This document shows positions 22,641-53,890 of a DNA stretch of 64,000 nucleotides, piece by piece. The DNA is taken from contig NC_039358.1 of NCBI RefSeq assembly GCF_003573695.1, forward strand, positions 230,405,560-230,469,559. The letters run 5' to 3'. The position numbers and the translations under genes were made by a program. Positions within the stretch are counted from its first letter, which is position 1. Each line of letters opens with the position of its first letter. The notes below the pieces were generated by a model, which did not search any database, was not told the DNA's origin, and saw only the letters and a list, made by a program, of their open reading frames with translations. Source of the stretch: Papaver somniferum. Taxonomy: Eukaryota; Streptophyta; Magnoliopsida; Ranunculales; Papaveraceae.

Positions 22641-22685
22641 GGTACATCATTTATATGTCTCTACTTTTGACACCCAATAAATATA
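22641..22685 (-). repeat. Severed tip of dispersed repeat copy 2
   Basis: The sequence TTTTGACACCCAATAAATATA is the complement-strand equivalent of copy 1 at about 1275-1297. The rest of copy 2 resumes at 38966, beyond the Mutator-like element that split it. Confidence 0.75.
22678..22685. other. Target site duplication, left (TAAATATA)
   Basis: Eight bases immediately outside the left terminal inverted repeat, identical to 38966-38973. Copy 1 of the host repeat carries the unduplicated site. Confidence 0.85.
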
Positions 22686-22726
22686 GAACCATTAATTGGG
22701 GATAAAAAAAGGAATTGGAGATATAA
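22686..22726 (+). repeat. Left terminal inverted repeat of the Mutator-like element
   Basis: Matches the complement of 38923-38965 at about 37 of 41 positions by eye. Beyond this the two ends diverge, so the terminal repeats are short for the superfamily. Confidence 0.85.
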
Positions 22727-22951
22727 GAAAAGGACAAAAATTGGTTCCAGATATCAATTCGGGGTCATCCTTTATCTAAGTATTTTACGTATTACCTAAT
22801 CTACCCTCACTAATCAGAATTAGTGATTAATAATAATTAGTAAAATCTTAAGATTTTTGATAAATGATTAGTGTGTGTTTTATTTGAATTTGGGTGAGTG
22901 AGGTGAGAGTAGGAGGGAAAAATATTTTTGAGTGGAATTTTTTTTGTGAAA

Positions 22952-25155
22952 ATGGAAGATGATTGTGAGGAGAGCGTTGCAGCTGCTGAATCTTTAGCTC
23001 TACTACAACAAGGAGCTAACGACAACAACTCTCAATTGCAACTCTTTGTTAAGCCAACACCCTTGAATGATGATTTTGACGAGTATGGAGAATTTTTCGA
23101 AAAAGCTACACAAGAAACTAAACTTGCACAACATGCAAGCATCCCCAATACACAGGTAAAGCTGCTAGGAGGTTGAAAAAACGATTTTTTTCTTTAAACC
23201 CGCCATTTTTTCGACTGTAAAACCTCGGTGCCGGCATGGTCGTAGTATGAATACCATGTCGGCAGACGCGTTACCGGCATGGTATTCATACTACGACCAT
23301 GCCGGTAAAGCGATATCCCCCAATTTGAATATTGATCCGGCATAGTTTTCTACCAAAAAACTATGCCGGTACACAGTTAACTTTTTTACCTACCAAGGAA
23401 TATACTACGGAATATTAAACCGGCATGGGTTCATTGATAGGTTACCATGCCGGAACTGCATGAAAAAAATACAGGAAACATTTCCATGTAAAACCAAAAA
23501 CCGGCATGGAAAATTAATAACCATCAACGCCGGAACCAGTTACCGGCGTCGTACTATCAATTTCGAGAATGCCGGCAGTGGAACCGGCGTTGTTGAGTTT
23601 CAAATTTACTACGCCGGTACCTACAAAAAAACATACAGGGAATAAATATTTTCCAGAACTAAATACCGACATTACATATCAATTAATTGGAATGTCGGTG
23701 GCGTGTACTGACTTGGGACAATAAATTACGACAGTGCCGGCACCTTGTTTTACGGTGTTGCTGTCTAATGAATAATTTATGCCAGAATATGTTTCAAATT
23801 TGGTATTCAGTTTTGGCTAAGTTCGACAATGCCAGAACATTGGTCGAGCATGCCGGTACTTGTTTCCGGCATAGTGTTTTAATTTCGTTTGGAACTAATT
23901 GTCGTTCGATCTTTAGGTGGTGACATATATTGATCCAACAAATACAAAGCCGCTTTATCGGGATACGTCGGAATACTATAAAATACCTCCGGTATGTGAC
24001 CAAAGAATACTTTACTAATGGATTGCTGGTAATGAACATTATAATGAATGTGAAATTGATCTTATGTAGGGAATAATAGATAGAAATGAAGCAATCGCTT
24101 GGGCTAAAGAGACGGCTCTTAAGAGCATGTGTGTGTTGGTGAGGAATACCGAACGTTCAAAGAGGCGTTTTGAGATGGCTTGCGAGAGAAGTGGGAAATA
24201 CAAGGAGAAGAATAGCCACAAGAGAAAGGATTATGTATATCCAAAGAAGACTAATAGGGTATACAAGACTCGTACGGGGAAGAATGATTGCCCGTTTAAG
24301 CTTGTTTTCCGTTTAAATGACATGAACAATTGGGATTGTGAGGTTTTCTGTGGTTGTCATAACCACCGGGATCCGAAAGATTTTGTTGGTCACTCCCTAA
24401 TTGCGAAGCTGAAACCTCATGAGTTCGAGGATGTAAAGAGATTGACCAAAACACTTATCAAACCGAGAAAAATTCTCACAGGCTTCAAGGAAAAGGATGA
24501 GTCCAACGTGTCTTCTCTACGTACAATTTATAGCGCACAAACAACTATTAGAAGGGTGGAATGGGAAGGGAGGTCCGTTATGCAAGAATTTGATAAGATG
24601 GCTTGGGATTACAACTACACGCGTATCATTAAAAGAGGGCCGGACGAGAAGCCCCTTCAAATATTCATTTCGCATCCTTTGCTTTCACAATTGGAAAATA
24701 CATGTTGTGGTGTTCTTATAATGGATTGTACCTACAAGACAAACAAATACAATAAGTCGTTGTTCAACATCGTGGGGCTAACCTCGGACAAGGTAACATT
24801 CACATTGGCTTGGTGTTTAATGGAAAACGAGAGGGACTATAATTATCATTGGGCATTACGAAAATTGAAATTATTCTTTCGGGAAAATAAACTTCCGAGG
24901 GTGATCGTAACCGATCAAGATGATGCATTAATGAAAGCAATATCCGACGTCTTCCCGGACGCACAAAATTTCCTATGTACATATCATATAGGTCAAAATA
25001 TCATAAAAACTTTCCATGCCTTGTTTGAACCCACTAAGGAGGATATTAAGAAGATAATGATTGTTCAACTAGAGGAAGATGTTCGAAAGAACAAACTATC
25101 CCCCGAAGAAGAAGAAGATGAGAGTGGCAAGATAAAGGAGCAAGTGGACAAATAA
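22952..25155 (+). pseudogene. MULE transposase with FAR1-type DNA-binding region (N-terminal part)
   Basis: Exons 22952-23155, 23917-23991 and 24070-25155 join in phase and encode an acidic N terminus, a FAR1-type zinc-binding region (VFCGCHNHRDP, with earlier CPFKLVF), and the MULE catalytic core with VLIMDCTYKTNKYN (first Asp, about 24715) and VIVTDQDDALMKAISDVFPD (second Asp, about 24905), followed by CTYHIGQNI. The frame ends at a TAA (25153-25155). The same protein clearly continues: after a frameshift the residues AAESAHGRFK (catalytic Glu) lie at about 25390-25420. Intron 1 is 761 bp and is packed with CCGGCAT motifs. Transposases of this kind cut and paste Mutator-like elements via their terminal repeats. 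Confidence 0.85.
23221..23890. repeat. CCGGCAT/ATGCCGG motif array in transposase intron 1
   Basis: About twenty exact or one-mismatch copies in both orientations, many as inverted pairs 15-40 bp apart. It includes a near-perfect palindrome: arm 23231-23262 is complementary to 23274-23305 at 31 of 32 positions, with an 11-bp spacer. The array fills intron 1 and stops at the exon borders. Confidence 0.9.
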
Positions 25156-25229
25156 CATGCGGAAAATCATAAAAAGTGGTTTAATTTCTAAGAGATTGGA
25201 AGAAAGTTTATTTTTCTCTTACCGAGATT

Positions 25230-26051
25230 ATGTACGAAAAGAGATTGGAGAAGTTTATTGCCTATTGGAACGAAGTTTATCCGACTGCCGTCTGGTATTG
25301 TCGGACTCAATGGTTGGATAAGTTCAAGAAAAATTTTGTGCGTGCATGGACAAACCGGTATAGACACTTCAAGACTGAAGTAACTAGTGCAGCAGAGTCC
25401 GCTCATGGGAGATTTAAAGATATCATCCAGTCCGGTCAAGGCAACGTGGTTACGGTCACCGAGGCAATGGAGCAATACTTTAAGGCTGATATCAATAGGA
25501 TCAAGGTGGCTTTTGAGAAAATCTCAATGGAAAGGATGACTCAATTTCTTCGTTATCTTAAGTTGCTCTAAGGAATAGAATTCAACGTCTCTCATTGGGC
25601 AATAAAACATATCATGACACAAATGGAATATGAGAAAAATTATGGAAAACCGGGTGATGTGTGTATTTGTCCCGACATGTCCTCATTGGGGCTTCCGTTT
25701 CGTCATATGCTTGTGAAGTATGAAGAAGTGATACCTATTGAGGTTACTGATCCGTTTTGGAAGCAACTATCTTTCGACCCTCCCCCTTCGGGAGATCCCG
25801 GGAAATCTCCATGGGATACGAATGAAGCAAAGAAATTCTACGAAGCTTACACACGTGGCACCTCGGTAAGCCGACAAGTCTTGTTGAGCCAACTAAGGCT
25901 AATTACTCGTCCATGGATCACACAAAGCGAAGATCCAGGAAAGGGAGATCCAATAGGTAGACCCCAAACTAAAACGTCAAGGAGAAAACAAAGGGTAGAA
26001 TTGAAAGGAATGACTCAACATGAAGAACAATGCGCAACAAGTAAGAAATGA
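25230..26051 (+). pseudogene. MULE transposase, C-terminal part with SWIM-like motif
   Basis: Continues the transposase after a frameshift near 25200. It contains the catalytic Glu region (TSAAESAHGRFK), then after a TAA at 25569 the SWIM-type zinc motif CICPDMSSLGLPFRHML (about 25660-25710), then a basic linker. Stops at 25569-25571 and 26049-26051 break it. Without these the frame would run directly into the AT-hook repeats. Confidence 0.8.
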
Positions 26052-26094
26052 GATCTAACCGCAAGTGATATTTCGGAACAAAGGTTCATGGAAG

Positions 26095-26780
26095 CGCAGG
26101 TTCCAAAAAAAAAAGGTAGGCCGAGGAAGGAACCGCTATCAAGTAAAAAACAAACGAAGGATTCCGTATCCGTACCAAAAGCCAACTCATCGGAGGTTCC
26201 AATGAAGAGGGGTAGGCCGCCAAAGGTATCAACATCAGGTTACAAAGAACAACAAGGTGAGCATTCTGAAGCCATACCCATAGTCGATCTAGCGTAGGTT
26301 CCAAGGAAAAGGGGTAGGCCACCAAAGGTATCAACATCAAGTGACAAAGAAAAACAAGGTGAGAATTCCGAAGCCATACCCTTAGTCGATCTAGCGGAGG
26401 TTCCAAGGAAAAGGGGTAGGCCACCAAAGGTATAAACATCAAGTGACAAAGAACAACAAGGTGAGCATTCCAAAGACATACCCATAGTCGATCTAGCGGA
26501 GGTTCTAAGGAAAAGGGTTAGGCCACCAAAGGTATCAACATCAAGTGACAAAGAACAACAAGGTGAGCATTAGGAAGCCATACCCATAGTCGATCTAGCG
26601 GAGGTTCCAAGGAAAAGGGGTAGGCCTCCAAAGGTATCATCATCAAGTGACATAGAACAACAAGGTGACGAGGCAAAGTTGGTGACAAACTCAAGTGATA
26701 TCAAAGTTGATGTAGTTTTAGTTCCAAGGCGAAGGGGTGGGCCAAGTAAGTACGGACTCCCATCACATATCGAAGACAGT
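26095..26780 (+). repeat. AT-hook-encoding tandem repeat, 102-bp period
   Basis: Units recur at exactly 102-bp steps (GGTAGGCC at 26211, 26313, 26415, about 26517, 26619) with diverged units at about 26116 and 26740. Each 34-residue unit encodes a KRGRPPK AT-hook core followed by STSSDKEQQGEHSEAIPIVDL. AT-hooks bind the minor groove of AT-rich DNA. In-frame stops at about 26294, 26432 and 26570 show decay after the array formed. The array links the transposase part to the OTU part in the same frame. Confidence 0.85.
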
Positions 26781-27565
26781 GCAAGTGTAGAGATTGCAGA
26801 GGATGGTTTGGATATAATCAAGTTAGAAAAGGGTAATATAAAGATGTATAAGGATCCCAGAACAGGTAGGACAATTAGAAGTTATCATACCAAGATACAA
26901 TCTTACATAGACCAAATTTCTGAGGTTATTCGCGAGTATATTGTATATACAGATGATGTCGATGGAGATGGAAATTGTGGCTATCATGCTGTGACAGAAC
27001 AATTAGGAGTCTTTGACACGGCGGGTAGTAGAGGTATGACACCATGATGATATGATAGAACGAGGATGGCCGAACAACTTGTGAACAAAGGAGATTTTAT
27101 GAGCAATTGGTTGGTGTAGGCGAGGGGTTTGATGTTATGCATTCTCAAATATTAGGGCCCGAGCAAGAGATGAACTTTCTTCCTTCTCAATATTGGATGA
27201 GAATGCCGCTTTTTGGGCATCTAGTGGCGGATACATTTAGATGTGTTTTTCATTATTTTACCCCCACCGTAGAAGTAACATTTACCCCAAAGTGGCAAAA
27301 ATGCGAAGGATCCCTTAAGAAGAGAAGAGTTGTTTTGGCGTTCGTGAACGGTAATCATTTTGTAATTCCAAAACTCAAGGACAATTGTCCTTTGCCACCT
27401 GTTTGTGGGATGGTAAAAAACAAGGATCTAGATACCAATATCTGGAAGGGATGGATGACATTGTATGAGGATAATCACCAATTTTGGTATGCGTTGGCCT
27501 TATCAAAGAAACATCTTCAAGAGGAGGAGATTAAAGTTAATACGTGTGGAAGCGATGATGAGTAA
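26679..27565 (+). pseudogene. OTU-type cysteine protease domain
   Basis: The frame at 26679-27047 contains DVDGDGNCGYHAV, the Asp..Cys active-site block of OTU deubiquitinases (catalytic Cys in GNCGYHAV, about 26975). After stops near 27045 and a frameshift, the frame 27107-27565 contributes the domain's second half, with LAFVNGNHFVIPKL holding the expected catalytic His at about 27355. The piece follows the AT-hook array in frame, so the ancestral product was probably one large transposase-AT-hook-OTU protein. OTU domains fused or next to MULE transposases are known in plants. Whether it cleaved ubiquitin, SUMO or a precursor is not visible. Confidence 0.8.
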
Positions 27566-27644
27566 TTTCTGTATATGTGGTTCACTAATACGTAACCTTT
27601 TGTTTTTTTAGGAAGTTTGAATTGTAAACATTAAATCATATTCT

Positions 27645-27935
27645 GATGCCTATGCCGACATAGTTGTGTTTTATAATTATTACGTCGGAACTTTTGTGCC
27701 GGCGTAGATTGTTGTTTTGGAACCATGCCGGAAATACAGAAAAAACATCCAGAGAAATCAGTAAATTCGCCGGCATAGAAGTTAACATCATAAAGGTGCC
27801 GGTTTTCTGTAAAAAACATATTTTCCAAGGAGATTGCAGACCACCGGCATAGTATACAAACACATTTAAATGCCGGAACTCTTTCATTTAGGAAACCGGC
27901 ATTGATTTTACTCTTTTCGAGCATACCGGTACTGC
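27645..27935. repeat. CCGGCAT/ATGCCGG motif array between transposase-OTU and PMD gene 1
   Basis: About nine copies, in both orientations, in the spacer between the two convergent genes (for example at 27699, 27725, 27768, 27798, 27842, 27870, 27894). Nothing else is recognisable in this spacer up to 28220. Confidence 0.85.
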
Positions 27936-28219
27936 AGATAACTTAGAAATTTATGTGATCTTGCCACATTCAAACTCTGTAAAAGAGGTAATTTGACACA
28001 AGTTTATCAACATAATAAATATAATAACAATACTAGATTCTATACCAGAACAAACTCCAAAGGTATGTTGTTCCAAACCGAAAACAAATCAAACATAAAC
28101 CAAGTCAAGCAAAGAGTTTAGCAAAGACACAAACAAACACATTGTTCAAGACTCGCAAACAAACATAAACCAACAGTAGATTGTTCAAACCAAACTAATA
28201 CCACAGAAGAAACAGACGA

Positions 28220-31137
28220 TCACTCGGTTCTTGGCTTCTTGTGTGCCCTCTTCTTCCTTTCGCCCCACAAGTCTTTTGCCGCCGGATCTTCAATTTTGTC
28301 GATATTTTTCTCGACGTTCTCCATTTCTTTCTTGGTCAGCACCTCTCCTTCCTTGTTTTTTTTCTTAAAGAACTTTGACAAATTTCCAATCCGCTTTAAG
28401 GAATTATTAAACATCTACTTAGTATGTACAATTGTATAACTTCATAGATATAGATTAAAAGATTACTAATGAACAAGACGTACATACCAACAACGTAACG
28501 AGCTGTAGAAGTGCGGGTACAGTTGTCGGAGTTGTGGAGGGACGTGCTGGTGGTGGAGGAACTTCTACCACATCCGGGCGTACAACATAAGGATGCGAGT
28601 ACTTCCGATGGCCTCTTAGGAAGGTTGGTTCACTCTCATAACCGTTTTCAGCCAATTCCCAATCATCCCTATCCAATAAAATTCCTTGTTCTTCCCTCTC
28701 ACTCCAATGCGCAAGAATAGCTTTTGGGTCGTAAACTACGAGAGTATTGTTCTCATTTGATTGGCATTGAGGAAAGTCATGAGAGAATTTCTGATAAGAT
28801 GTATCCGTGAGATCTTTCTGCTTGTACCCAAGTTGGCGCATTACACGTCGAGGGTTGTGCATAACAAATCCTTTTGGATGAAATAACGATCCGTTGTAAA
28901 ATGAAACATTGTCACGCCTTTCGAAGTGAACTCCTCTGGAATTACTACACGGGTCAAACACAACATCTTGGACAACCATCGAATGCAAATCCAATCTTAT
29001 TTCTAATAACCTTTTCTTGTTATTGGGCCTTGGGGTATTGTTGAAGAAGTATTTATGACATAGAGGCCCATTCTATGGATAATCAGGGACAACCTCCAAT
29101 CCTTTATACCGTATGAACAATTTTGTGAAGTGTTCATAAGCCCACACCTACGCCAATGAAATATCGTTCCAATGAAATGTATAAGAAAATAAATAATTGG
29201 ATACTAACAAATTTAATGACAACAATAAAAAAAATAAGTAGTTCACTATACCTAAATTACAGTGAAATTCCCATTAAATTGACGGGCGTAATCCTTAGAA
29301 GCTCGACGCATTTCTGCCAAAAAAATGTGCCAAGAAAGCAGTGCCCCATAAATACTCAAGGATCCAAGTATTGTAGGTTGTTCATATGCACCATGTTACC
29401 ATTATCGTCAGGGAATATAGCGGAGCCCAAGATGAACAACATATAAGCAGCGACAGTTTGCTGAACTTGTTCGAGATTCAATTCCTTGTTCTTCGTGTTC
29501 CCAAACAATTCAACGAGATTGACGAATGTGATGGTCTTTGTTTGGGAACTCTTTGTCTTTTACATATTTTCCAAAGTGGTTTCCTTGTCCCATTCAAACA
29601 ACTTAAAAGTCAGCTCATAGATCTTGTCCCATCCAAGGTCCTTAGAGTCATCTCCTACCTTAACGACTTTCCCAAGAACCTCTAGACCTATTATCGTTTG
29701 GACATCTTCAGGGATAATGGTCATCTCGCCAAAAGGAAAATGCATGGTATCAGTTTCACCAAAAAACCGCTCCAAAAAGCAGTTCACCGTCACGGTATCA
29801 ATGGACACATAATTTTTAATCGCGGGATACAACGCAGATGTTTTGACTATTGCTTTAACAGCGGCACACTCATGCTTCAAAGGCCATAAGTCCGCCTGTT
29901 GATGGCGCCTAACACGGAAGGCTTTTTTGTGGTCCTATAAAAACACACCAAACTTAATTCAATTCACTTGATCACAGATAAATAATACAATAACAAGATA
30001 AATAATATAATAAGAAGACGCAAACGTCTTACATAAGATTGATAGATCCAACGAGCCCAAGAGTCTTTATAAGCAAATAAGAGTTGCGGGTTTATCGGTT
30101 CACCCCAATATTTGCCGTCATCGCGGTTTGGAATCATGTCATATTTATCAGGAAGGTGGGATGGGGGTGCCTTTTCATTATCCTCAGGGGCTTCAACTCC
30201 GACACCAGAATGTCCCAAGCCACCTGCTTGTGAGGATGAGCCACCTGCTCGTTTCGGTACAGGTAATTGTTCCCACTCATCATCATCATCACTGCTGGTT
30301 GAGTCGCTTATAGGTTGATCCTGAATTGTCACCTTAGCAGTAGCCGTATCAGGATGGCTACGTCGAGAAGACCTATGTTTTGGTTCTACAAAAGCTTTGC
30401 CTTTTCCTTTGTTCTTTTTTTCTGCTGTTGACCAATGTTCCAATATTTAAACTGAGTTAAATAATCACAGCCGGCATATATGTTGAACATAACATCAATA
30501 CCGGCTCTTGATAGCGGCATGGTATATATTTACAAATCCATGCCGGTTGTCTTGAATTTTAGACACGGAATTAACGATTTTTTGTAAAGAAAACCGGCAT
30601 AGAACTTTCACATATAGACACTGCCGGCATTGTTGCCGACATTGTAAGATATGTACTGTGTATGCCGGAACATTGTAATTTCAGTATAGAGTTTTTAACA
30701 AAAGAGGCTAATGAAAACGACATAGTATTGATCAAATATACAACGCCGGAAACGGAAACCGACATGGTATTCAATTAATTTTTCATGCCGGCAGGGTCAT
30801 GCAATAAAATAGGGATTCAAGACATATAATCTGGCATGATTTTCAAGTTGAATTCTACCGCGAATCAAACATGTAACTAAACTACAAATTTCAATTTTCA
30901 AAATTTACTTATAGTGTAGTAAAAAGACTAAACATACAAGTTTCACTTTGGATAAACCCTAAAAATACTTCAATTCAACATATACATCACTTACCGGAGC
31001 AATTGTGTTATTTCAGCCTCACCAACAAACTCTTCAGACTCCTCCATTTCTTGCGCTTTTGATTTCGATTTACCACCATCATCAGCAGATTCTTCAGGAT
31101 TTATTATGGGTTTTTAACGAGGTTTGCGACGACCCAT
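28220..31137 (-). pseudogene. Plant mobile domain (aminotransferase-like) gene, copy 1
   Basis: Read right to left: first exon 31137-30995 (MGRRKPR then an early TAA, later Glu/Ser-rich), an intron holding a motif array, an exon about 30443-30033 (acidic, Ser-rich, ending ARWIYQSY at a GT donor), an exon from 29934 with the domain core (ETDTMHFPFGEMTIIPEDVQ at about 29730-29690), then C-terminal exons 28994-28455 (FHPKGFVMHNPRRVMRQLG) and 28414-28220 (Lys-rich tail). Stops at about 29560 and 29360 and a frameshift break it. Plant mobile domains occur in host MAIL/MAIN proteins, which act in silencing and genome stability, and in many transposons. It is paralogous to the gene at 35447-38628. 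Confidence 0.75.
30468..30835. repeat. CCGGCAT/ATGCCGG motif array in intron 1 of PMD gene 1
   Basis: About thirteen exact or near copies in both orientations (for example 30471, 30502, 30541, 30593, 30623, 30662, 30744, 30786). It occupies the first intron as in the transposase gene and PMD gene 2. Confidence 0.85.
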
Positions 31138-31367
31138 TGTCTTTGGTATAGAAGATGAAACAAAATGGGAGAGTGACTACAAAGGGAGATTGAATAATTT
31201 CCTTTCTATAACCGTCACTTAAATATAATGAAGGAATTTGTAACCGGCGCATAAAATGGTATTAAGGATTTTATAACCGTCAAATAAGGGGATAAAATAG
31301 TTTGTAACCGTCAAATTAGTGAAATGAAGTAGTTTGTAACTACCACATAACTTGTGTTTGTAACCGT

Positions 31368-31480
31368 CAGAATGCCGGCATGGAAAGATGGCAAAATTCA
31401 GTTCCGGTACTGGTGACAATAAGTTTCAATTGCAATCATAAAACAGGCACAGTATGCTGATCACATTTCAACGCCGGTAG
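31368..31480. repeat. Short CCGGCAT-type motif cluster upstream of PMD gene 1
   Basis: Four or five copies (31373, 31402, 31470 and degenerate ones) in the spacer between PMD gene 1 and the unknown ORF. The adjoining stretch 31200-31370 holds repeated GTAACCGTCA words (at about 31208, 31265, 31305, 31358), a second small repeat. Confidence 0.65.
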
Positions 31481-31650
31481 TGATTCTTGATTCATTATTA
31501 ACGCTTCTCCAAAAGGTTTAAGCAAGCAAACTGACCCAAATTGGGCTTCATACTAAGGAAATAAATTAAAAAACATTAAACACATAAACAACGTTACAAA
31601 TAAACATTAAACACATTAAATGAAAGATTTCTAGCTAATTGCAACTAACA

Positions 31651-32265
31651 TCATTTCTTGGTACGAGATTCAACAAACAACACATCTTCGAAATGCCTAA
31701 AAGGCTCTTTTCTCCATTTGGTATATGCGGCCTGAGCTTGATACCTATTATCTCGGTATATTGCGAGAAACTTATTGTATTTGCGACCCAATTTTATGTG
31801 GGCAATTGTCTGGTTCGCTACAAACTCATCCCCGTAATCCATTTTGCGTTTCTTGCACTTACCGTCATATAACCTCGACATATAAGGACCATCCTCAACA
31901 AGACCCCAAAAAAGGTTTGAAGGGCGGTCATCTTCCTGCAAATACGAAACTATGAAGTAATTCTTAATCCATTCGGTTTCTTCCTCAACATCCGCTTCTA
32001 TCTTCGCTTGTTTTACACGTTCGATTATCTCTTTAGTTTCTTTGCGATATTTTTCTTGTATTGCTTCCTCTTCTTGTAATCTTTTCCTTCTAAGTATCTC
32101 TTCTTTCGTTGCGGTAAGTGACTTGGTGGTTGGCTCCTTCCTTTTAAGTTTTTCTAGTATCATGGGAATTGAGTTGGTGGTGGATGATGATTGATTCCCT
32201 ATCGGAGTGAATTTTTTTTTATATAAAAAATCTCTGAAATCGGTAGTTCGTGATTTCTTTGCCAT
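31651..32265 (-). CDS. Unknown 204-residue basic protein, intact
   Basis: One uninterrupted frame starting MAKKSRTTDFRDFLYKKK. Residues about 55-110 are a charged coiled-coil (EEILRRKRLQEEEAIQEKYR); the C-terminal half has aromatic and charged blocks (WIKNYFIVSYLQEDD, NLFWGLVEDGPYMSRLYDGK) and ends VESRTKK. I do not recognise the family. It lies between PMD gene 1 and the SANT gene, all on the minus strand, and motif arrays flank it on both sides. Absence of stops in an element whose transposase is dead suggests either recent decay of the latter or supply to relatives in trans. No zinc-finger, membrane segment or catalytic motif is visible. Confidence 0.65.
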   Translation of the reverse strand: MAKKSRTTDFRDFLYKKKFTPIGNQSSSTTNSIPMILEKLKRKEPTTKSLTATKEEILRRKRLQEEEAIQEKYRKETKEIIERVKQAKIEADVEEETEWIKNYFIVSYLQEDDRPSNLFWGLVEDGPYMSRLYDGKCKKRKMDYGDEFVANQTIAHIKLGRKYNKFLAIYRDNRYQAQAAYTKWRKEPFRHFEDVLFVESRTKK

Positions 32266-32374
32266 GAGAGAAATGTGGTGGAGGTCACCTATTATTTTTT
32301 TGAGGTATCAACTGCAATAAGTGTATCCATTCCTTTAAATAGATGAGGACACAACGGCTCTTTTCCACTTTAAC

Positions 32375-32650
32375 ATTCCGGCATTTTCAGTATTTTAGAT
32401 CCCACGCCGGAAATGGTCTTTACTTGTTTATGGTTCAAAAAAATAGCCGTTATGCATTGAATGCTCTATTCAGGCAGTGAACGTTAGATTTTCGACAATG
32501 CCGGAAACGGTTACCGGCACAGTAATGTATATAACTAAAAAGTCGGAACATTGTTTATTGCACTCAGAATTTTGACACTTAATTCCAGCATATAATAATA
32601 TAAAAGATACCGACATGGAATTACGCAAACATAAAATGCTGGAAATGTAA
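32375..32650. repeat. CCGGCAT/ATGCCGG motif array between unknown ORF and SANT gene
   Basis: About seven exact or near copies (32377, 32405, 32498, 32513, 32542, 32586 and degenerate ones). It spans the whole spacer between the two minus-strand genes. Confidence 0.8.
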
Positions 32651-32809
32651 TTTATTTGAAATTTAATCCTTGTCGACGGAACAACGAATGCACTTAGCAT
32701 GTGCATCAAGCCTTTGAACCCCTAAGCGACCCTAGTGGACGAGTTATAGTCTAGTGAGGGTTTACATAGAGATCTACCCACAAAACCTACACAAAAAATT
32801 CTAAATCCA

Positions 32810-33321
32810 TCAATCTTCGTCCGAGGACGATACACCCTCCATCATCTCCGGGGCATACTCCGGGATTTTGGATTCCATGAATTGGTAGCTTGAATCGAAT
32901 GCGAATGCTTCCCCCTTTTCCTCCAAGTAGTGCGCTTTGACGACTTCATGCTACAAAAACATAGCACAAACTTACTTGGTTAGTTGTGTTTAGTATGAAC
33001 ATCAAACAACATGGATCACGTAAAATAAACCACAACAATACTTACAAATTGGTCAATGGACAAGTTAACGTGGGGATCATTGAAAATTGGTTTTTGGATT
33101 TCTAAATAAGCAAGTATCGCACTTTCGATGACTCGGTGCCTATCATGAATCTGTTGAACACTTCTTCTATTCGGATTCCCAAACTCTTGCATATATTTGT
33201 TGTATACCTTACCCAAAAAGGTCACGGAATCCACCCTTACGGAGGACTGGCTTCTATCTCGAGTTTCCGCGTACCAAGCTTTGGTGATCGCCAAATCTTC
33301 ATTTGAATCAAAGGATGCCAT
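32810..33321 (-). CDS. SANT/Myb-like transposon protein, intact
   Basis: Two exons, 33321-33046 and 32950-32810, both in phase 0 with GT-AG borders, give 138 residues. The N terminus MASFDSNEDLAITKAWYAE followed by VDSVTFLGKVYNKYMQEFG and RSVQQIHDRHRVI has the pattern of Myb/SANT-like proteins found in PIF/Harbinger and other plant transposons (acidic start, W in the first helix, a W/F..V...Y second helix, and an R..Q...R third helix). Such proteins usually bind transposon DNA. The C terminus is acidic (SSSDED). A TATAAATA box lies at 33436-33429. A diverged copy of exon 2 lies at 33910-34050. It looks translatable. Confidence 0.75.
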
Positions 33322-33428
33322 TGCTTTGTATGTTGAAGTGTTGGTAGAGTTAGAAATATTATATAATGATATCAGTTTTTTAGAGTATATGGAACCAGGT
33401 GTGTGTTGTTTTGTAGGGATAAAAAGTG

Positions 33429-33436
33429 TATTTATA
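33429..33436 (-). promoter_or_regulatory. TATA box of the SANT-like gene
   Basis: TATAAATA on the minus strand, 108 bp before the start codon at 33321, following ATCC. It is the only good TATA box in this interval. Confidence 0.55.
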
Positions 33437-33511
33437 GGATGGTGCCCAAATATGGCCGTTATTGTACTCAATCAATGAAGTTTTACTTGCAAAAATTTGA
33501 ATTTTGAATTT

Positions 33512-33715
33512 TCCGGCATAGTAATAAGGATAAACGACGCGCCGGAAGTTGGAGCCGGCGTTGTTTCGTATATATCATTAATGCCGGTACCTGGTTTATT
33601 ATACACAGAAACAATATAGTGCTTGATACTTTATACCGGCATGTAATAAATATATAAAATCCATGCCGGTTCATGCTACCATCATGGAATTATGTAAACA
33701 TAGAATGCCGGAAAT
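33512..33715. repeat. CCGGCAT/ATGCCGG motif array upstream of the SANT-like gene
   Basis: About seven copies (33513, 33540, 33553, 33582, 33635, 33664, 33706) in the promoter-side spacer between the SANT gene and its truncated copy. Confidence 0.8.
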
Positions 33716-33909
33716 GTAATTTATTTCAAATGTAATCCTTGTCGAAGGAACAACGAATGCACTTAGCACGTGCATCAAGACTTAAACCCCTAGGCGACCC
33801 TAGTGGACGAGTTATAGTCTCGTGAGGTTTTACATAGAGATATACCCACAAAACCTTACGAAATACCTAACCAAATGCCCTAAAAAACTAAGCAAACACC
33901 ACTAAACTA

Positions 33910-34150
33910 TCAATCTTCTTTAGAAGAATCCGTCTCCGATTCACCCAACTGGTGGTACTCCGTGACTTTGGTTACAATATGGTTGACTTTGGCTTCAAAC
34001 ATGAATGCTTCCCCCTTTTCTTGTAAGTAACGCGTTTTCACGGCTTGATGTTACAAAAACAACACACAAACTTTGTTTGTTTCATAAAATTTGCAAACGA
34101 GTAGATTATGTCGAATTAGTCATAAAGATACTTACGAGTTGTTGATTCAT
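33910..34150 (-). pseudogene. Truncated duplicate of the SANT-like gene
   Basis: The interval 34050-33910 is exactly as long (141 bp) as exon 2 of the SANT gene and still encodes 46 related residues (HQAVKTRYLQEKGEAFMF start, SSKED end). The acceptor before it has changed from GTAG to GTAA, and the first exon is reduced to a few codons (MNQQL then a GT donor near 34133). The DNA on its 3' side, 33683-33870, is nearly the same as 32614-32790 downstream of the intact gene, so a whole gene end was duplicated. Confidence 0.8.
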
Positions 34151-34256
34151 TGTATATAATACCCCCCATTCCTTGGGAAAAATCTACACAAATCACCCAC
34201 CAAATAACAAAAATCTTTCTCTCAAGAAAGCAAGCACGGTTAAAGCTTCACAAGGG

Positions 34257-34727
34257 ATGGGAGATTCATCATCTAGCTCTATTTGCAAAGTAAGTAGAAT
34301 AAACATTACTAACAATATAATCTTCACTACTAGGACGCATAACTAATATAATCTTCTCTTACAAAGTCATCATTGCAAGTGTCAAATTTGCAAGTCACCT
34401 TCTCATCTAGCCATGGACTGTCCTTTTATTTATTCAAAGTGTAGAAGCTGTGATGGGACACGCCGGTTTTGGATTGCAAAAACTGATGATGCTGAAAATG
34501 GAAGAATGTTTCTAAGGTGTTTGAATCACCCAAAGTGCGATGAGTTTCAATGGTTTGACAAAGCTGTTGAACTAGCAGAGTCAAGAGAAAACCACAAGGG
34601 CCAATGCAATCCTATCGATGGGTGTGATGGGTGTTATATGAAGGGAAAGGAATATGTTGAAAGAGAAGAAGAACCAATGAAGATGATCCTTGACACCCCC
34701 ATCCGGACGATGTCTTCGAACAGATGA
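34257..34727 (+). CDS. CCHC zinc-knuckle + GRF zinc-finger protein, intact
   Basis: Two exons, 34257-34289 and 34380-34727, phase 0, give 126 residues starting MGDSSSSSICK. Exon 2 opens with a perfect CX2CX4HX4C knuckle (CQICKSPSHLAMDC) and continues with a GRF-type zinc-finger (KCRSCDGTRRFWIAKTDD, then GRMFLRCLNHPKCDEFQWFD). The tail is acidic. Both finger types bind single-stranded nucleic acid in known proteins; they occur together in topoisomerase III alpha. The exon 2 acceptor was chosen because it keeps the frame; an acceptor at 34366 would shift it. The gene is the only small plus-strand gene in this half of the element, divergent from the truncated SANT copy. A TATATAAT box lies near 34153. 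Confidence 0.7.
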
Positions 34728-34904
34728 AACGCTCAAAGGTTCCACAATTGTTGAAAAGGGATGGAAATAGTTAATCTTTACCCAAATGTAATCCATTATA
34801 TGTTTTTTAGCATGTTTTAATTTAAAGTATCAAATCCAATGTAATAGACTTCTTAGGAATGAAATAAAAGAACATTCGAAATGGATTTATACTCAAAACT
34901 AGCA

Positions 34905-35180
34905 GACTGTCGGCATAGAAGCGACCAATATTACAGTGCCAGTTTTCTGTCGACTATGAAAATTTGGGAAAAAATCATAAAATCGGCATAGATTATAGAA
35001 AAACGACTATGCCGATACCTTCCAATTTCTATACAGGAACATGAAATTTTTAATTTTCTAGTTCCTGTATGGTTTTATGAAACATTTCCTTGCCGGTACA
35101 AGAAATCGGCAATGAACTGTAATTTTCTCGCATGACGGAACCTGTACCGGCGTTGTTGAACCAAAGATTTTCCATGCCGG
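34905..35180. repeat. CCGGCAT/ATGCCGG motif array between GRF gene and PMD gene 2
   Basis: About eight exact or near copies (34911, 34983, 35009, 35092, 35105, 35135, 35148, 35177), several with one changed base (TCGGCAT). It lies between two convergent genes. Confidence 0.75.
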
Positions 35181-35446
35181 AAGCAGTATTAAATAAATCT
35201 TACAAAAATAACATTTCACTAGAAATCTAAACATGTTCAACATAAAGCAATCACTCGAAACCTAAACATGTTCAACACAAACCAAACAACTGGATTATGC
35301 TTAAATGTTCTTAATCCAGGTAACATAAACTAAAAGCAAACCAAACAACTAAAGAGTTAACCATGAGGTACAAACGAAAACAAGTTCGTAATTGTTCAAG
35401 AGGTAACAACCACCATCCAGTAAAAGAAACACAACTAAATAGTTAA

Positions 35447-38400
35447 TCAATTGGTCTTTTGCTTCTTTTGCGCCGGTTTCTTCCTAATTTCACCGAACAA
35501 ATACCTTGCACTAGGGTCAGTTTCTTCAATTTTATCAAGCTTCTCCACGACTTCCTTCACTTCTTCATTGGATAGACCCGCTCCTTCATCGTACTTGCAA
35601 CATAAATGGTTCCTCAACTTGCCAAGCCGACGACGCTAGTTTCATACATACAACACATAATTAGTATATATATGGTCATATAATATTATGTGTACATTAA
35701 ACGACTAAGTAATTAACAATACTTACTAGCAATCCAACAGTCTTATTAAGTTGGACGATCGTAGGTGGTGGCGGTGCGGGAGTTGGAACGGGAGGGTGTT
35801 TCTGGGGTGGAACTTGAACGTCATCCGGGCGGACGACAAAAGGATGTGACCATTGCAAATAATCTTCCATGTAGTTGGCATCAACCTCGTCACCGTTTTT
35901 CGCAAGCTCCCACTTATCCCACTGACTAATATCTACCAAACGACGTGGTTCCCTATCCCTCCAATCTGTTGGATCCGGTTTTGGATCATACTCTACATGC
36001 AACCGATTAGGAGTTGAAAAGCACCAAGAAAGGTCAAGAAAAAAACATTGAAAAGAGTCCGTCTTGATATGTGATAATTGCTTGAATCCAAGTTGGCGCA
36101 TCACACGTGTAGGATTGGCCATAACGTATCCTTTTGGGTGGAACAACGGCCCATGGTAGAATGCAACGTTAGTATACCTCAAAACTTGGAAGTTTACTCT
36201 AACCTCCTTGTAAGGGTCGTAGACAACAACTTGGGTACACATCGCGTCCAAATCCAACCTCATATCGATCAGTCGACCTATGTTACCGGTCTTCGAAGTG
36301 TTGTTGAACTCGTATCTTCTAGCTATAAGCGTATCGGGTTCGGGAAGGTCTTTGATCTTCAAGGAGGTCCAGTACTTGAACAAGGTGGGTAAGTGTACAT
36401 AAGCCCACACATATTCCGAGGTGAAGCAATAAGTTTTGTTTCTAAGTTCACGATAAGGGTAAATGTGAACAATATACATAATACATAAGTTTAAAAACAA
36501 AATTACCTGCAGTTGAGTGAAATTCCTGACAAATTGGTTGGTTTTAGCCTTAGAGGCCCTTCTCATCTCCATCATCAAATGCGCCATTACCCCGGTGCCC
36601 CAAGAATAACCATAGACATCTTCCAATGGATCCAAGTACTGAAGGTAGTTCGCACTAACCCTGTTGCCATTAGTGTCAGGGAATACCCTAGTGCCCAAGA
36701 TGTATAACAGGTATGCAGCGGCAGTATAACGAATTTCTTCAGGGTCCCATCCATCCTCCAAACATATTTTCTTTGTGTTTTCAAACTTCTTCTTTAGTAG
36801 CGTCAACTTGATTGTCTTTGTCCTACCAGACTTGGATTCATAAAAGCTCTCCACAGAAGTTTTGTAGTCCCAACCCAACAGATTCTTAGTCAGAGCGTGC
36901 AACTTCGACCATTCTAGGTACAGAGACTCAATTCCTTCTGCAATTGATTTGCCCGTAACATTCAAGCATAGAATTTTTTGAGCATCATCAGGGATGAAGA
37001 TCATCTCCCAAAAAGGGAAGTGCATGGTATCGGTTTCACCATGATACCTTTCGACGAAGCAATTGACAGTCACGGAATCAGGCTTCACATAATTTTCAAC
37101 CAAAGCATATAGACCATATTCCATTACTATTTATTGGACCTCTTCGCATTCATCGGACAATTTCCAACAATCCGCGACTTGGTTTCGGCAAACACGCACA
37201 GCCTTCGTATGATCCTACAATTAGGAGACAATACAATTAAGATATTTTACATAAATACACAAAAATACATATGCACAAGATAAAAAATACTTACATAGGT
37301 TTGATAGATAGTACGAGCCCACGAGTGCTTGTATCCAAATAGTATTTTCGGTTCCGGAGATTCACTCCAAATTATACCACGTTCAAGGTCAGGTATCATG
37401 TCATTAATATGAGGAAGGTGGGAACCTTTAATTTTCACTTTTCCATTGCCCTTCTTGCCATTGCCTTGTGTTGGCTGTTGACTTGGACCACCAACTTCGC
37501 TTTGGCTTGCTAATTGACTTGGAGGAACCACATTATCTTCATCTTGCTCATCTTGATCATCGTGGTCACGGATTACAGCTCGACTACGGTCACCACCACT
37601 CTCTCAAATTATCCCTCTTGTCTCAGCCCCCAAACGCTTTTTACGACCTTCATCTTTCCCTCGAGGAGGGAGAGATTGAGGAGTATCAAGACCGTCCTTC
37701 CTTCTTCTCTTAGTGACAACATCTTTAGTTTTTCTTTTATTAGCCTCCTTGGCTTTTGACCTATATCATAAAATCACACGAAATGAATGTGAGACAACTC
37801 ACTTTCAGTTTTTCCACCGACATTGACTTACTGAAACAAAGCACGCCGGTTGTCTGTTTCAGCATTAAACAATAACTGTCGAAAATGCCGGTAATCATAT
37901 GTAATTCTCTTGTACGTTTTTAGTCCACTACCGGCATTCTCGAAATAAATCAATTACATGCCTTAACCTGGTGCCGGCATTCAAATCAACCTAAAAATGT
38001 ATGCCGGTACCGGTGATAAATTCATAAACTCTCCTGTATGGTTTAAGTCCACTACCGGCATGCTCGAATTTTCACAAAAGAATGCCGATACTATAAAACG
38101 GCATACAATGGAACCAAATGTCTATGCCGGTACTGGTGACAAATTCATAAACTCTCCTGTATATTTTTAGACCACTACCGGCATACACGAATAGTTATAA
38201 ATGACTGCCGGTACCAAGAACCGCAGGGAATTCGACCCAAATTCTATGCCGGTATCTAAAATTCAGTTTCTGATGAATCTGCGAAGTGAAACCGACATTG
38301 CATTTATCCTAGATTGAATGCCGGAAGGTAAAACCGGCACCGTATTCATATATATTTCAGTGCTTGTAATCACTGAAACTCAATTGTTTCAGTTAGGGTT

Positions 38401-38628
38401 TGCGATTCTAACCTAAACCCATTGCTATAAATCGATTAAAACACTCATAAAGTATTTCAAAATCACTTACCTTCTCACAGAAGCCATGGTTGCGAGAGGT
38501 TGATTGTCTGAATCCGCTGCTTGTTCTTCTTCTTGCTCTTGAGAAATCTTAGCAATTCTTTGTTCCTGTTTTTGTTGAGCAATCGATTTTGAGTTCGATT
38601 GGGCATTCGTTTTCTTTCGTGAAGGCAT
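35447..38628 (-). pseudogene. Plant mobile domain (aminotransferase-like) gene, copy 2
   Basis: Four exons read right to left: 38628-38471 (MPSRKKTNAQSNSKS, Gln/Glu-rich), 37760-37295 (basic, nuclear-signal-like KRKTKDVVTKRRRK, ending ARTIYQTY), 37214-35727 and 35635-35447 (Lys-rich end KKPAQKKQKTN). All junction phases agree. The mobile domain core is ETDTMHFPFWEMIFIPDDAQ at about 37045-36990, with WGTGVMAHLMMEMRRASKAK near 36600-36540. Exon 3 may hide a short intron after NFTQLQ (about 36510). In-frame stops at 37604-37606 (TGA) and 37131-37133 (TAA) probably kill it, otherwise about 766 residues remain. It is less decayed than its paralogue at 28220-31137. Confidence 0.8.
37820..38345. repeat. 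CCGGCAT/ATGCCGG motif array in intron 1 of PMD gene 2
   Basis: About eighteen exact or near copies in both orientations. Part of it is a tandem repeat with a period of about 123 bp: the string CTCCTGTA..TTT..GTCCACTACCGGCAT recurs at about 37905, 38030 and 38153. As in the other two long genes, the array occupies the first intron. Confidence 0.88.
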
Positions 38629-38922
38629 TGTTTATGATTCGGGTAGGTTAATCGTCGAAGAAATTTTTGAATCGACGATTAATCGACGAAGAACGGATGA
38701 AGAACGATGAAGAACGATGATTTTTTTTTTCAAAAACCTAAACCTAGGTCAGTGCCGATAGATGGAAGAATGGGGTATATGTGTTTGGTTTTTAGATTTT
38801 AAGTTTTAGGGGAAAGGGTATAGTAGTCTTTTCATATTTTTTTTTAATTAATCAAAGGGTATTTTAGTATTTTCATGCACAAAAATCACCCCTTAGCACA
38901 CACCATGGGTTGGGGGAAGTAA

Positions 38923-38965
38923 TCAATATCCCCCAATTCCTTTTTTATGCCCCAATTAATTGTTC
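38923..38965 (-). repeat. Right terminal inverted repeat of the Mutator-like element
   Basis: Complement of the left terminal repeat, including CCAATTCCTTTTTTATGCCC. It ends GTTC, directly followed by the TAAATATA duplication. Confidence 0.85.
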
Positions 38966-40000
38966 TAAATATATCCTTATACAATAATAAATATATCCCT
39001 ACTTTTTAATAACCTTGTCCATTCAAAATTAGATTACCTTAATACCCTCACCCATATAATATTTTTCTTTATTTCAAAATGGAATAAATTTCTTCCTCTA
39101 CCGCTTCACCACCACCACCACTAGCACCACCACCAACATTCAACTACTAATCCACCACCAACGTTCAACGACCACCACCTACCAACCGCCACCACCACTA
39201 ATATTCCACCACCACTCCTTCACCACCACCATTACACCACCACCAGTCTTCCACCACCATTACTCTATCGCCGCCATCACCACTAGTCCGCCACCGCCGC
39301 CGCCACTGGTTCAAATATTTTTGTATCAACAACAATAGTTGACCCAAATAAAAATAGAACCAACAGTAGAAGTTGATCCAATTTAGAGGATCAACAATGG
39401 TAGTTGATCCAAAAAAAAAAGAATCAACAGTAGAAGTTTATCCAATTTAGGGGATCAACAATGGTAGTTGATCCCCTAAACTGGATCAACAATGAACGTT
39501 GATCCATGTAAATCGAGTGAACTTGGCGTGAGTCGAACACGCATCATCTGACGTGGAGTCAGTCATGCTACCATTGCACCACAAGTTCAACATTGGAAGA
39601 AATTTACATGATTTAAACTACAAGCATGATTTAAACTACAAAGCATGAATATACTTATCCCAGAAAATATTGTCAACAATAGGAGTTGAAAGGATCAACA
39701 ACAGTAGTTGATCCCATAAAAAATTGGGTCAACAACAAGAGTTGATCCCATAAATGGATCAACAACCTAATTGGTCCCATAAAAAATTGGGTCAACAACA
39801 AATTGATCCCATCAAAATAATTAAGTAGATGCTTTGAAGTTTCAACACCAATTCGAACCGTCTGAACCAATTGAGCACCCCAATAATATGTACAACATGC
39901 ATGAATCTATTCGTGGTGTGGTGTCACTAATATATCCAACACTATGTTTTAGTATCCGCGTATCATTGGGAACACATTCAAAATAATTGAGTAGATGCTT
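38966..40000 (-). repeat. Dispersed repeat, copy 2 (main part)
   Basis: Complementary copy of 1-1275: AT-rich tail (38974-39095, including ATATATCCTTATACAA), CCA-rich tract (39100-39300), GATCAAC/GTTGATCC motifs (39325-39505), the tRNA-Trp-like segment (39518-39588), TTTAAACTACAAGCATG (39612-39628) and more GATCAAC motifs (39660-39815). Its tip is on the far side of the Mutator-like element at 22641-22685. The boundary near 40000 is approximate. Confidence 0.75.
39518..39588 (-). pseudogene. tRNA-Trp(CCA)-derived segment
   Basis: Same 71-base segment as at 330-400, with only a few differences. Here the anticodon stem pairs as CTGAC/GTCAG around a five-base loop TCCAC, again one or two bases short of a normal seven-base loop. 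A and B boxes are intact. Confidence 0.7.
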
Positions 40001-51959: not shown

Positions 51960-53890
51960 ACAATGGAAACAGTGCGTAAATGGTGAATAATTTGGTTCTA
52001 ACTGTTAATCTACTTACTAAATGATAATTGGCGCTTTCATAATACAATTTGGAACCGCTTTTTGGACGGGTGAATAATTTGGTTCAAACAGTTAATCTAC
52101 TAAATGATATATGGTGTTTTTATTATACCCTGCAGTTGTTAATTGGGACCCTTTCTCGGACGGGAAGCACTTCATATGCTTTGCACTATTTAAAGTTGGC
52201 AATCTATTTTATATTAATATCACCATTTTTGTTAGTTTCTCTACTATCAGATATCGTTACCTATACAATGAGTGTGATTTTTCATTTAACTATAAGAAGT
52301 TGGATCCTGGAAGATCAGTTGGGTTGGTCCATTGATTCTTAACGCAAATATAGGATTTTCGAAGAAAGATACACCCACGCATTTTCTTAATTATATATTA
52401 TTTGACGGGAAACACTTTATAAGTTGTGCACTATTTAGAGTTGGCAATCTATTTTATATGAATATCATTTTTTTAGTGTTTCCAATATAAGATATCGACT
52501 GTGTAGCAAGTGTGATTTTTTATTTAACCAATAGTACTAATATTGACAATGTAATGAACTACTTAATGATTTCAAAGCTTAGTATAATTTTTCAAAAGTA
52601 TTTTCAGGATTTTTTAATCTCCAACAATTTAAACAGTGCATGAATGGTGAATAATTTGGTTCAAACTGTTAATCTACTAAATGATAATTGGTGCTTTCAT
52701 AATACATTGCAGTTGTTAATTGGGACCGCTTCTTGGACAGGTGAGTAATTTGGTTCCAACAGTTAATCTACTAAATGATAATTGGTGTTTTCATTATACA
52801 CTGCAGTTGTTAATTGGGACCCTTTCTTGGACGGGAAGCACTTCATATGCTTTGCACTGTTTAGAGTTGGTAATCTATTTTACATTAATATTATGATTTT
52901 TGTTAGTTTCTCTAAAATCAGATATCAGTAGCTAAATAATGAGTGTGATTTTTCATTTAACTATAAGAAGTTGGAGCCTGGAAGGGCAGTTGAGTTGGTC
53001 CATTGATTCTTATGCAAATATAAGATCTTCGAAGAAAGACATATCAATGCATTTTTTTGATTATATCTTCTTTGACAAGAAGAACTTCATAAGTTGTGCA
53101 CTATTTATAGTAGGCAATCTATTTTATATTAATTTTTTTTTGTGCCTTCAATATCAAATATCGATACAACTGTATAACAAGCGTGATTTTTCATTTAACC
53201 AATAATACTAATATTCACAATGTAATAAACTACTTAATGATTTCAAAGGTTGGCGTAATTTTTCAAAAGTATTTTCATTAAAATGATTTCTTAATCTCCA
53301 GCAATTTAAACAATGCGTTATTGGTGAATAATTTGGTTCCAACTATTAATCTAATAAATGATAATTGGCGCTTTCATAATACAATGCAATTGTTAATTGG
53401 GACCGCTTCTTGGACTGGTGAATAATTCGGTTCCACAAGTTAATCTACTAAATGATAATTGGTGTTTTGATTATACACTACAGTTGTTAATTGGGACCCC
53501 TTCTTGGATGGAAAGTACTTCATATGCTTTGCACTATTTAGAGTTGACAATCTATTTTATATTAATATTATGATCTTTGTTAATTTGTCTAATATCAGAT
53601 ATCAATACATGTATAATGAGTTTGATTTTCATTTAACCATAAGAAGTTGGAGCTTGAAAAATCAGTTGAGTTGGTTCATTGATTCTTTACGTAAATATAA
53701 GATTTTCGAAGAAAGATATATCAGTGCATTTTCTTGATTATATGTTATTTGACGGGAAGCACTTCATATATTGTGTACTATTTAAAGTTGGCAACCTATT
53801 TTATATGAACATCCTTCTTTTTAGTGTTTCCAGTATCAGAGATCGATATAAATGTATAACAAGTATGATTTTTATTTTATTTTATTTGTA
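51960..53890 (+). repeat. 675-bp tandem repeat, about three copies
   Basis: Landmarks recur at steps of 672-677 bp: GGGACCCTTTCT/GGGACCCCTTCT at 52144, 52816 and 53490; TTTGACGGGAA/TTTGACAAGAA at 52393, 53070 and 53747; GGTGAATAATTTGGTTC at about 51981, 52643 and 53321. Each unit itself holds two related halves sharing GGGAA.CACTTCATA..TTGTGCACTATTTA.AGTTGGCAATCTATTTTATA-like sequence (variable). The open frames in it (up to 97 codons) are repeated with it and match no family I know. Confidence 0.85.

Follow-up and report, generated by a model that had tools for sequence, protein, structure and literature searches.

What is the function of a short sequence word that is repeated in the introns and spacers of a transposon and is avoided by its exons? 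The question is raised by a 64,000-nucleotide stretch of the Papaver somniferum genome (NCBI RefSeq assembly GCF_003573695.1, contig NC_039358.1, positions 230,405,560 to 230,469,559 of the forward strand). This whole stretch, numbered from its first base, is called the window here. It carries a Mutator-like transposon (MULE) of 16.3 kb at 22687-38965, bounded by terminal inverted repeats (TIRs) and a 9-bp target duplication, and inside this one element lie two plant mobile domain (PMD) genes, PMD1 and PMD2. An earlier note on the window had pointed out eight clusters of the motif CCGGCAT/ATGCCGG in the element and likened them to the motifs of the Arabidopsis VANDAL transposons, which are bound by VANC proteins. 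Our analysis points to arrays of family-specific paired binding sites for an element-encoded protein, likely serving anti-silencing, a reading to which we give somewhat better than an even chance.

The motif is confined to the non-coding DNA of the element

The window contains 42 exact copies of the motif, 20 of them forward and 22 reverse, and 41 of the 42 sites lie at 23231-38324, inside the element. Motif counting places them in eight arrays, which have no strand:

23221-23890: motif array 1, 11 exact sites, transposase intron 1
27645-27935: motif array 2, 5 exact sites, tail-to-tail spacer between transposase and PMD1
30468-30835: motif array 3, 6 exact sites, PMD1 intron 1
31368-31480: motif array 4, spacer upstream of PMD1, palindrome ATGCCGGCAT and variants, 2 exact copies
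32375-32650: motif array 5, spacer, 2 exact sites and variants
33512-33715: motif array 6, spacer, 5 exact sites
34905-35180: motif array 7, tail-to-tail spacer between the GRF-like gene and PMD2, 1 exact site and variants
37820-38345: motif array 8, 9 exact sites, PMD2 intron 1

The eight clusters and their positions in first introns and spacers had thus been correctly described. That all of them were dense holds for five arrays but not for arrays 4 and 5, with two exact sites each, or array 7, with one; the remaining sites of these three are one-mismatch variants.

Taking the element as 22677-38974 (16,298 bp), with exon limits that are approximate and derive from open reading frames (ORFs) and tblastn, we counted 41 exact sites in 6,838 bp of non-coding DNA and none in 9,460 bp of coding DNA. 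A first-order Markov model predicts 0.34 exact sites for the non-coding part, in which ATGCCGG is the top-ranked over-represented 7-mer. Outside the element there is one exact site in 47.7 kb, a CCGGCAT at 21905 without exact neighbours. The claims that exons are almost free of the motif and that no clusters exist outside the element therefore stand. Including five common variants raised the counts to 78 in non-coding DNA, 4 in coding DNA and 6 beyond the element. Within the element, the outermost 544 bp and 641 bp contain no exact site. The observed/expected CpG ratio is 1.27 in the arrays versus 0.79 in coding DNA, an excess that is partly a product of the motif itself and is not taken here as a sign of low methylation.

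The sites form convergent pairs at a fixed spacing

Convergent neighbours (CCGGCAT...ATGCCGG) stand 25-27 bp apart, measured start to start. The window holds 29 such units when variants are allowed. Exact sites alone form 6 convergent pairs at this spacing, against a mean of 0.40 after random re-placement within the arrays, and none of 20,000 draws reached 6. We then considered 30 other elements of the same family (family A), chosen by PMD similarity or as whole elements and not by motif, with L029 excluded as it lies within L035. Among their convergent pairs within 8-60 bp, 77 of 78 are at 25-27 bp. Divergent pairs within 60 bp are chiefly 54 bp apart (29 of 66), followed by 16 bp (13), 46 bp (6) and 3 bp (5), and same-orientation pairs within 8-135 bp are mostly at 123-124, 42-43, 71-72 and 80-81 bp. 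A pair at 42 ± 1 bp is present in 27 of the 30 elements, one at 123 ± 1 bp in 25 and one at 81 ± 1 bp in 21. A period scan of the same-orientation distances peaked at 10.2 bp (0.72; 0.55 at 10.5 bp), which is near one helical turn, in a test that is soft since the copies are homologous. The interiors of the pairs are only slightly more alike than shuffled sequence (mean identity 0.352 versus 0.289). Strict inverted pairing at about 2.5 turns, together with nearly helix-phased repeats, suggests a protein that would bind as a dimer, with its copies aligned along the DNA.

The pairing recurs throughout the genome. In searches of 2.715 Gb (34,283 contigs), with the backwards motif as control, pairs at the six gaps 17-22 numbered 5,539 against 4 for the control, and pairs at the 18 gaps 23-40 numbered 361 against 54. 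The convergent pairing at 25-27 bp, the 42-bp repeats, the genome-wide recurrence and the gene-less derivatives described below were all absent from the earlier note.

The word is retained by related elements and gene-less derivatives

PMD2 matches at least 114 stretches of the genome that are 56-100% identical (90 of 12,747 candidates scored). In the fetched PMD2 loci, the window's own copy included, the exact motif is present in the 1.5-kb flanks in 30 of 30 cases and in the exon in 0 of 30. It is also present in a sister element, E10 (L035+L036), whose PMD2 shows 66% amino acid identity to that of the window. E10 follows the order of the window, with transposase/OTU-like sequence, PMD1 (of which the 3' end is present), GRF-like sequence and PMD2, and its 37 exact sites are spread over spacers and the first introns of the transposase and PMD2. 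It is without the stretch matching 28.7-32.65 kb of the window (most of PMD1 and the gene for a 204-amino-acid protein), and about 3.2 kb is inserted into its GRF-like gene.

Transposase intron 1 was aligned between the window and E10, L003, L039, L048 and L050, the last covering exon 1 and part of the intron; matches to transposase exon 1 in related elements are DNA similarity only. Over these five copies, identity to the window is 87.5% in the motif columns, 66.2% in the rest of the intron and 85.2% in exon 3. Random 7-bp windows of the intron gave a mean of 67.8% and a maximum of 79.6%, and none of 5,000 draws reached 87.5%. The motif bases of this one intron thus appear to be conserved about as well as exons. 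Their most conserved part is the CpG at motif positions 2-3 (95-97%). In methylated DNA, CpG is normally the first to decay.

On contig C1, the first-listed pair sites were grouped into 18 clusters, and the sequence around 14 of them was analyzed (L001, L003, L039-L050), the four densest, multi-kilobase clusters being excluded. Nine of the 14 (L001, L040-L046, L049) are short clusters that have no match to the element proteins and whose ends are related to those of the window element. Both element ends are present in seven of the nine, while L043 is without the outermost right end and L044 has one end only. Four clusters bear a transposase (L003, L039, L048, L050), and L047 is not assignable. 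Ends and array without genes is the commonest form in this cluster sample, in which array presence was selected for, as the nine gene-less clusters were found via the motif. The element L001 measures 1,276 bp, has a perfect target duplication of 9 bp and no ATG-initiated ORF above 85 amino acids, and carries seven ATGCCGG in succession at 21-bp steps. Between successive sites of the same orientation in the nine short derivatives there are 61 distances of at most 130 bp, of which 19 measure 21 bp and 10 measure 42 bp; steps of 21 bp were found in only 1 of 30 gene-bearing loci. The presence of arrays in gene-less derivatives suggests that the reader would act in trans.

Two further leads were set aside. 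A degraded family-A relative (L037) carries, at 331-1143, 5' of its PMD gene and near the expected intron 1, a G+C-rich 69-bp tandem repeat of 11.6 copies. It was considered as a replaced array, but set aside in view of the truncation of the element and a possible foreign origin of the repeat. Back-translated intron-derived peptides of annotated PMD proteins also pointed to the motif, but they come from the same genome and are not independent evidence.

A second PMD family carries a different word in matching places

To a second family, family B (query P0012), belong PMDs that are about 38-40% identical to those of the window, with at least 200 matching stretches (74 of 14,993 candidates scored). 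In L051+L053 the dominant word is RGTCGTY. None of its 56 sites falls in the 2,763 bp of assigned exons; they lie in PMD intron 1, in the 3' spacer and in two other non-coding clusters, and of the 23 convergent pairs within 8-60 bp, 16 have a spacing of 27-29 bp. L054 and L055, whose PMD is about 53% identical to P0012, have 23 and 31 copies of the word, all outside the assigned exons; these copies occupy PMD intron 1 and the spacer adjoining transposase or OTU-like sequence. Their close convergent pairs are at 26-28 bp in 5 of 7 and 6 of 12 cases, respectively. L052 has 12 sites, two of which are in exons, and two of its six close convergent pairs are at 26-27 bp. Genome-wide, the paired form GAGTCGTN{20,22}ACGACYC was found 967 times, versus 17 for the control.

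CCGGCAT and GRGTCGT occur 393 and 17 times in 30 family-A elements, and 1 and 87 times in five family-B stretches from four elements. The two families therefore use different words in matching anatomical places and with similar geometry (26 versus 26-28 bp). This is the family-specificity that a VANC-like system predicts, and it argues for a reader encoded by the elements and not by the host.

L052 also contains, at 4880-5345, a 53-bp tandem array of TGCATAAC/GTTATGCA with 22 sites. The GTTATGCA array was set aside as a third code because it sits, by eye, in an apparent nested insert in the PMD intron, which is possibly another element carrying its own array. Near the family-B element in L053, an ORF at 4750-5154 matches RNA polymerase Rpb1 domain 1 (Pfam, E = 3.8e-16) and is either a captured gene piece or a neighbour.

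Gene content of the element and candidate readers

The remaining features of the element are as follows:

22678-22686, no strand: left target-site duplication TAAATATAG
22687-22736, + strand: left TIR, by TIR alignment
22952-23155, + strand: transposase (MURA) exon 1, boundaries by eye, relatives aligned
24069-27565, + strand: MULE transposase body, several ORFs, C-terminal repeats, OTU-like end, by ORFs and Pfam
28235-31137, - strand: PMD1 gene, exons by tblastn with Papaver homologues, first exon by eye
31654-32265, - strand: gene for the 204-amino-acid protein, by ORF
32817-33321, - strand: SANT-like small protein (label of the earlier note), two exons inferred by eye
34413-34770, + strand: GRF-like zinc-ribbon protein, by sub-threshold Pfam match
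35453-38628, - strand: PMD2 gene, exon 1 at 38470-38628, by Pfam and homologues
38916-38965, - strand: right TIR, by TIR alignment
38966-38974, no strand: right target-site duplication TAAATATAT

The TIRs are alignable over 42 nt with 86% identity, and the target duplications TAAATATAG (left) and TAAATATAT (right) agree in 8 of 9 bases. Pfam MULE matches the transposase at 24127-25152 (E = 5.7e-25), whose OTU-like end has sub-threshold Pfam support only. Pfam PMD matches PMD2 at 35700-37124 (E = 3.2e-22), and PMD1 was assigned through similarity to Papaver PMD proteins. The name "MAINTENANCE OF MERISTEMS-like" is borne by 3 of the 14 proteins matched by the PMD search. A profile search for further PMD proteins returned nine, all already known to the analysis, and no PMD relatives were found in the viral contigs searched.

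Which of these products could read the words? A PMD gene is common to both families, and one family-B element (15 kb examined) encodes in addition a small protein weakly like the SANT-like one (28% over 68 residues, E = 2e-8 in a single comparison). The PMD protein, alone or with a partner, is our favoured candidate for reader or effector, a tentative choice that falls somewhat short of an even chance. Its AlphaFold2 model (PMD2) has a mean predicted local distance difference test (pLDDT) score of 38. The SANT label given to the small protein found no support in Pfam, nor in Foldseek, where a low-confidence AlphaFold2 model of the exon (pLDDT 55) had no match at E ≤ 0.001. For the 204-amino-acid protein, a homology search found no homologue at E ≤ 0.001. 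Its gene was not found by tblastn in E10, in E6 (a distant relative) or in the 15 kb of the family-B element, a search that is not decisive, as E10 is without the entire matching segment and E6 is truncated; this absence nevertheless weakens it as a shared reader.

Several repeats were noted in and around the element. Within the transposase gene, 26191-26668 is a 102-bp tandem repeat of 4.7 copies that by eye encodes repeated KRGRPPK-like segments, some copies being broken by stops. We take these segments to be AT-hook motifs. The stretches 32651-33322 and 33720-34145 both align to the same place in E10 and represent a partial duplication, inside the element, of the SANT-like gene and its flank. 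Outside the element, clusters of GGATCAAC/GTTGATCC in alternating orientation flank it on both sides (127-883 and 39372-39741), and two related 94-bp tandem duplications lie at 52646-52832 and 53322-53508 in an A+T-rich flank.

Discussion

The element shares with the VANDAL/VANC system its MULE superfamily transposase and a short, family-specific motif that is confined to non-coding DNA and persists in relatives. The layout proposed in the earlier note, VANDAL-like with a different motif and different proteins, is thus upheld. None of the three outcomes that this note had named as counter-evidence was seen, as the motif is enriched, its density in exons does not equal that elsewhere, and related elements carry it. 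VANDAL motifs reportedly show helical periodicity and are used by non-autonomous copies, as Sasaki and colleagues are said to have described in EMBO J in 2022. According to the available passages of PMC5735166, short motifs are bound in introns, intergenic and other non-coding DNA of VANDALs, they form tandem repeats, and the motif changes between families. In Arabidopsis, VANC21 binding covers introns and spacers, and CG methylation is lost there (available passages of PMC5735166 and PMC10398659). The motifs themselves differ, CCGGCAT and RGTCGTY in poppy versus YAGTATTAY, AGTTGTCC and AGTTGTAC in VANDALs, and the strict convergent pairing of the poppy sites is not mentioned for VANDALs in those passages. 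Pfam gave no match to DUF1985, DUF287 or Ulp1 in the 11 distinct ORFs or exons of the element that were scanned, a set without PMD2 exon 2, the repeats at 26.1-26.7 kb and those PMD1 exons that lie upstream of 28994; the poppy element has PMD, GRF-like and SANT-like genes instead. It also has TIRs, whereas VANDALs are called non-TIR in the available part of a 2026 review (PMC13317346). The poppy system is therefore VANDAL/VANC-like in its layout but differs in two features, as VANC domains are missing from what was scanned and TIRs are present.

PMDs have been captured by MULEs elsewhere. Ikeda 2017 (PMC5418596), in the parts accessible, describes such captures in grasses and Amborella, where the PMD is fused to the transposase, and speculates that they have an anti-silencing role. 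The poppy element likewise combines MULE and PMD, but as separate genes, two of them in this element, in a eudicot, and with motif arrays, which those parts do not describe. The host PMD proteins MAIN/MAIL1 have been linked to silencing and possibly to a DNA motif, the "DOWN" motif CATGCAGTTT in the MORC1 promoter (PMC9899485; PMC7156037). These are host genes, however, and in the passages available PMD recognition of a motif is only a hypothesis and the DOWN motif, which is different, is not described as arrayed.

How might the poppy system work? We propose that the better-preserved members of the PMD-bearing MULE family would encode a DNA-binding protein, two subunits of which would read the inverted half-sites CCGGCRT and AYGCCGG, 26 ± 1 bp apart. 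Such pairs recur at a step of 42 bp, or four helical turns, and in short derivatives at a step of 21 bp. The protein would settle on first introns and spacers, both of its own element in cis and of gene-less derivatives in trans. Bound regions would be kept or made unmethylated, and the element would escape host silencing, as VANC allows VANDALs to do. Both the protein binding and the anti-silencing are what we infer from these patterns; anti-silencing is the most economical role, given that the arrays cover introns and spacers, the parts to which VANC21 binds in Arabidopsis with a loss of CG methylation.

Other explanations have to be weighed against this one. TnpA, encoded by the CACTA element Spm/En, binds short repeated subterminal motifs and reverses methylation. 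The poppy arrays could similarly be accessory sites: either the transposase, which has AT-hook-like repeats, or a partner would assemble there and draw the two ends together. The retention of ends and arrays by gene-less derivatives, as transposition in trans would need, and the very large number of paired sites genome-wide would both fit. However, the eight clusters extend to a distance of about 8 kb from each end, and no exact motif lies in the outermost 544 and 641 bp, where a TnpA-like arrangement would have its sites. We consider this explanation unlikely. It is less likely still that a host transcription factor drives the element genes through the arrays as intronic and intergenic enhancers. 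Enhancers are commonly located in intron 1 and 5' spacers, but two arrays lie in tail-to-tail 3' spacers (27645-27935 and 34905-35180), gene-less derivatives retain arrays, and one fixed host factor leaves the different words in matching places of the two families unexplained.

The words contain CpG, and VANC and RNA-directed DNA methylation targets overlap in VANDALs (available passages of PMC10398659), so that they might be handles by which the host recognizes and silences these families. An element would then be selected to lose them, yet they are conserved and also repeated in short derivatives, and we consider this very improbable. Most improbable of all is that the arrays are functionless leftovers of neutral tandem duplication in introns. 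Some true tandem repeats do exist, at 38000-38254 of the window and in the 21-bp repeats of L001, but the interiors of the pairs have diverged where arms and spacing have not, the motif columns in intron 1 of the transposase have changed about as little as exons have, and coding DNA is avoided.

Some observations weigh against paired sites for an element-encoded reader. A transposase or a host factor could leave partly similar arrays. Because the family-A loci are homologous copies, the spacings counted in them are not independent of one another. In the window alone, exact same-orientation sites at 41-43 bp are only weakly enriched (3 versus 0.76, P of about 0.04). The distant, truncated E6 has 12 exact sites and many with one mismatch, and old copies such as this one seem to lose the word. 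The window copy of the element is not intact, as its transposase frame is split into several ORFs and one PMD1 exon contains a stop. Finally, no DNA-binding fold was recognized in any candidate protein by Pfam, structure models or Foldseek.

In the open-licence literature searched, motif-directed anti-silencing of transposons is described for VANC-bearing VANDALs, which does not imply its absence elsewhere. A broader proposal, to be held slightly more tentatively than the role of the PMD protein, is that poppy MULEs evolved, independently of VANDAL/VANC, a modular and sequence-specific anti-silencing system built on PMD proteins related to MAIN/MAIL1, in which every family would use a paired-site code of its own that gene-less passengers read in trans, with no fewer than two such codes present in one genome. 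If true, this would be a second instance of such a system, with other proteins, a strict paired grammar and at least two words in one genome, indicating that transposons repeatedly invent private address codes. It would provide natural DNA-binding or demethylating modules with predictable targets. Moreover, the function of the plant mobile domain, a point left as speculation in the available parts of Ikeda 2017 (PMC5418596), would become directly testable.

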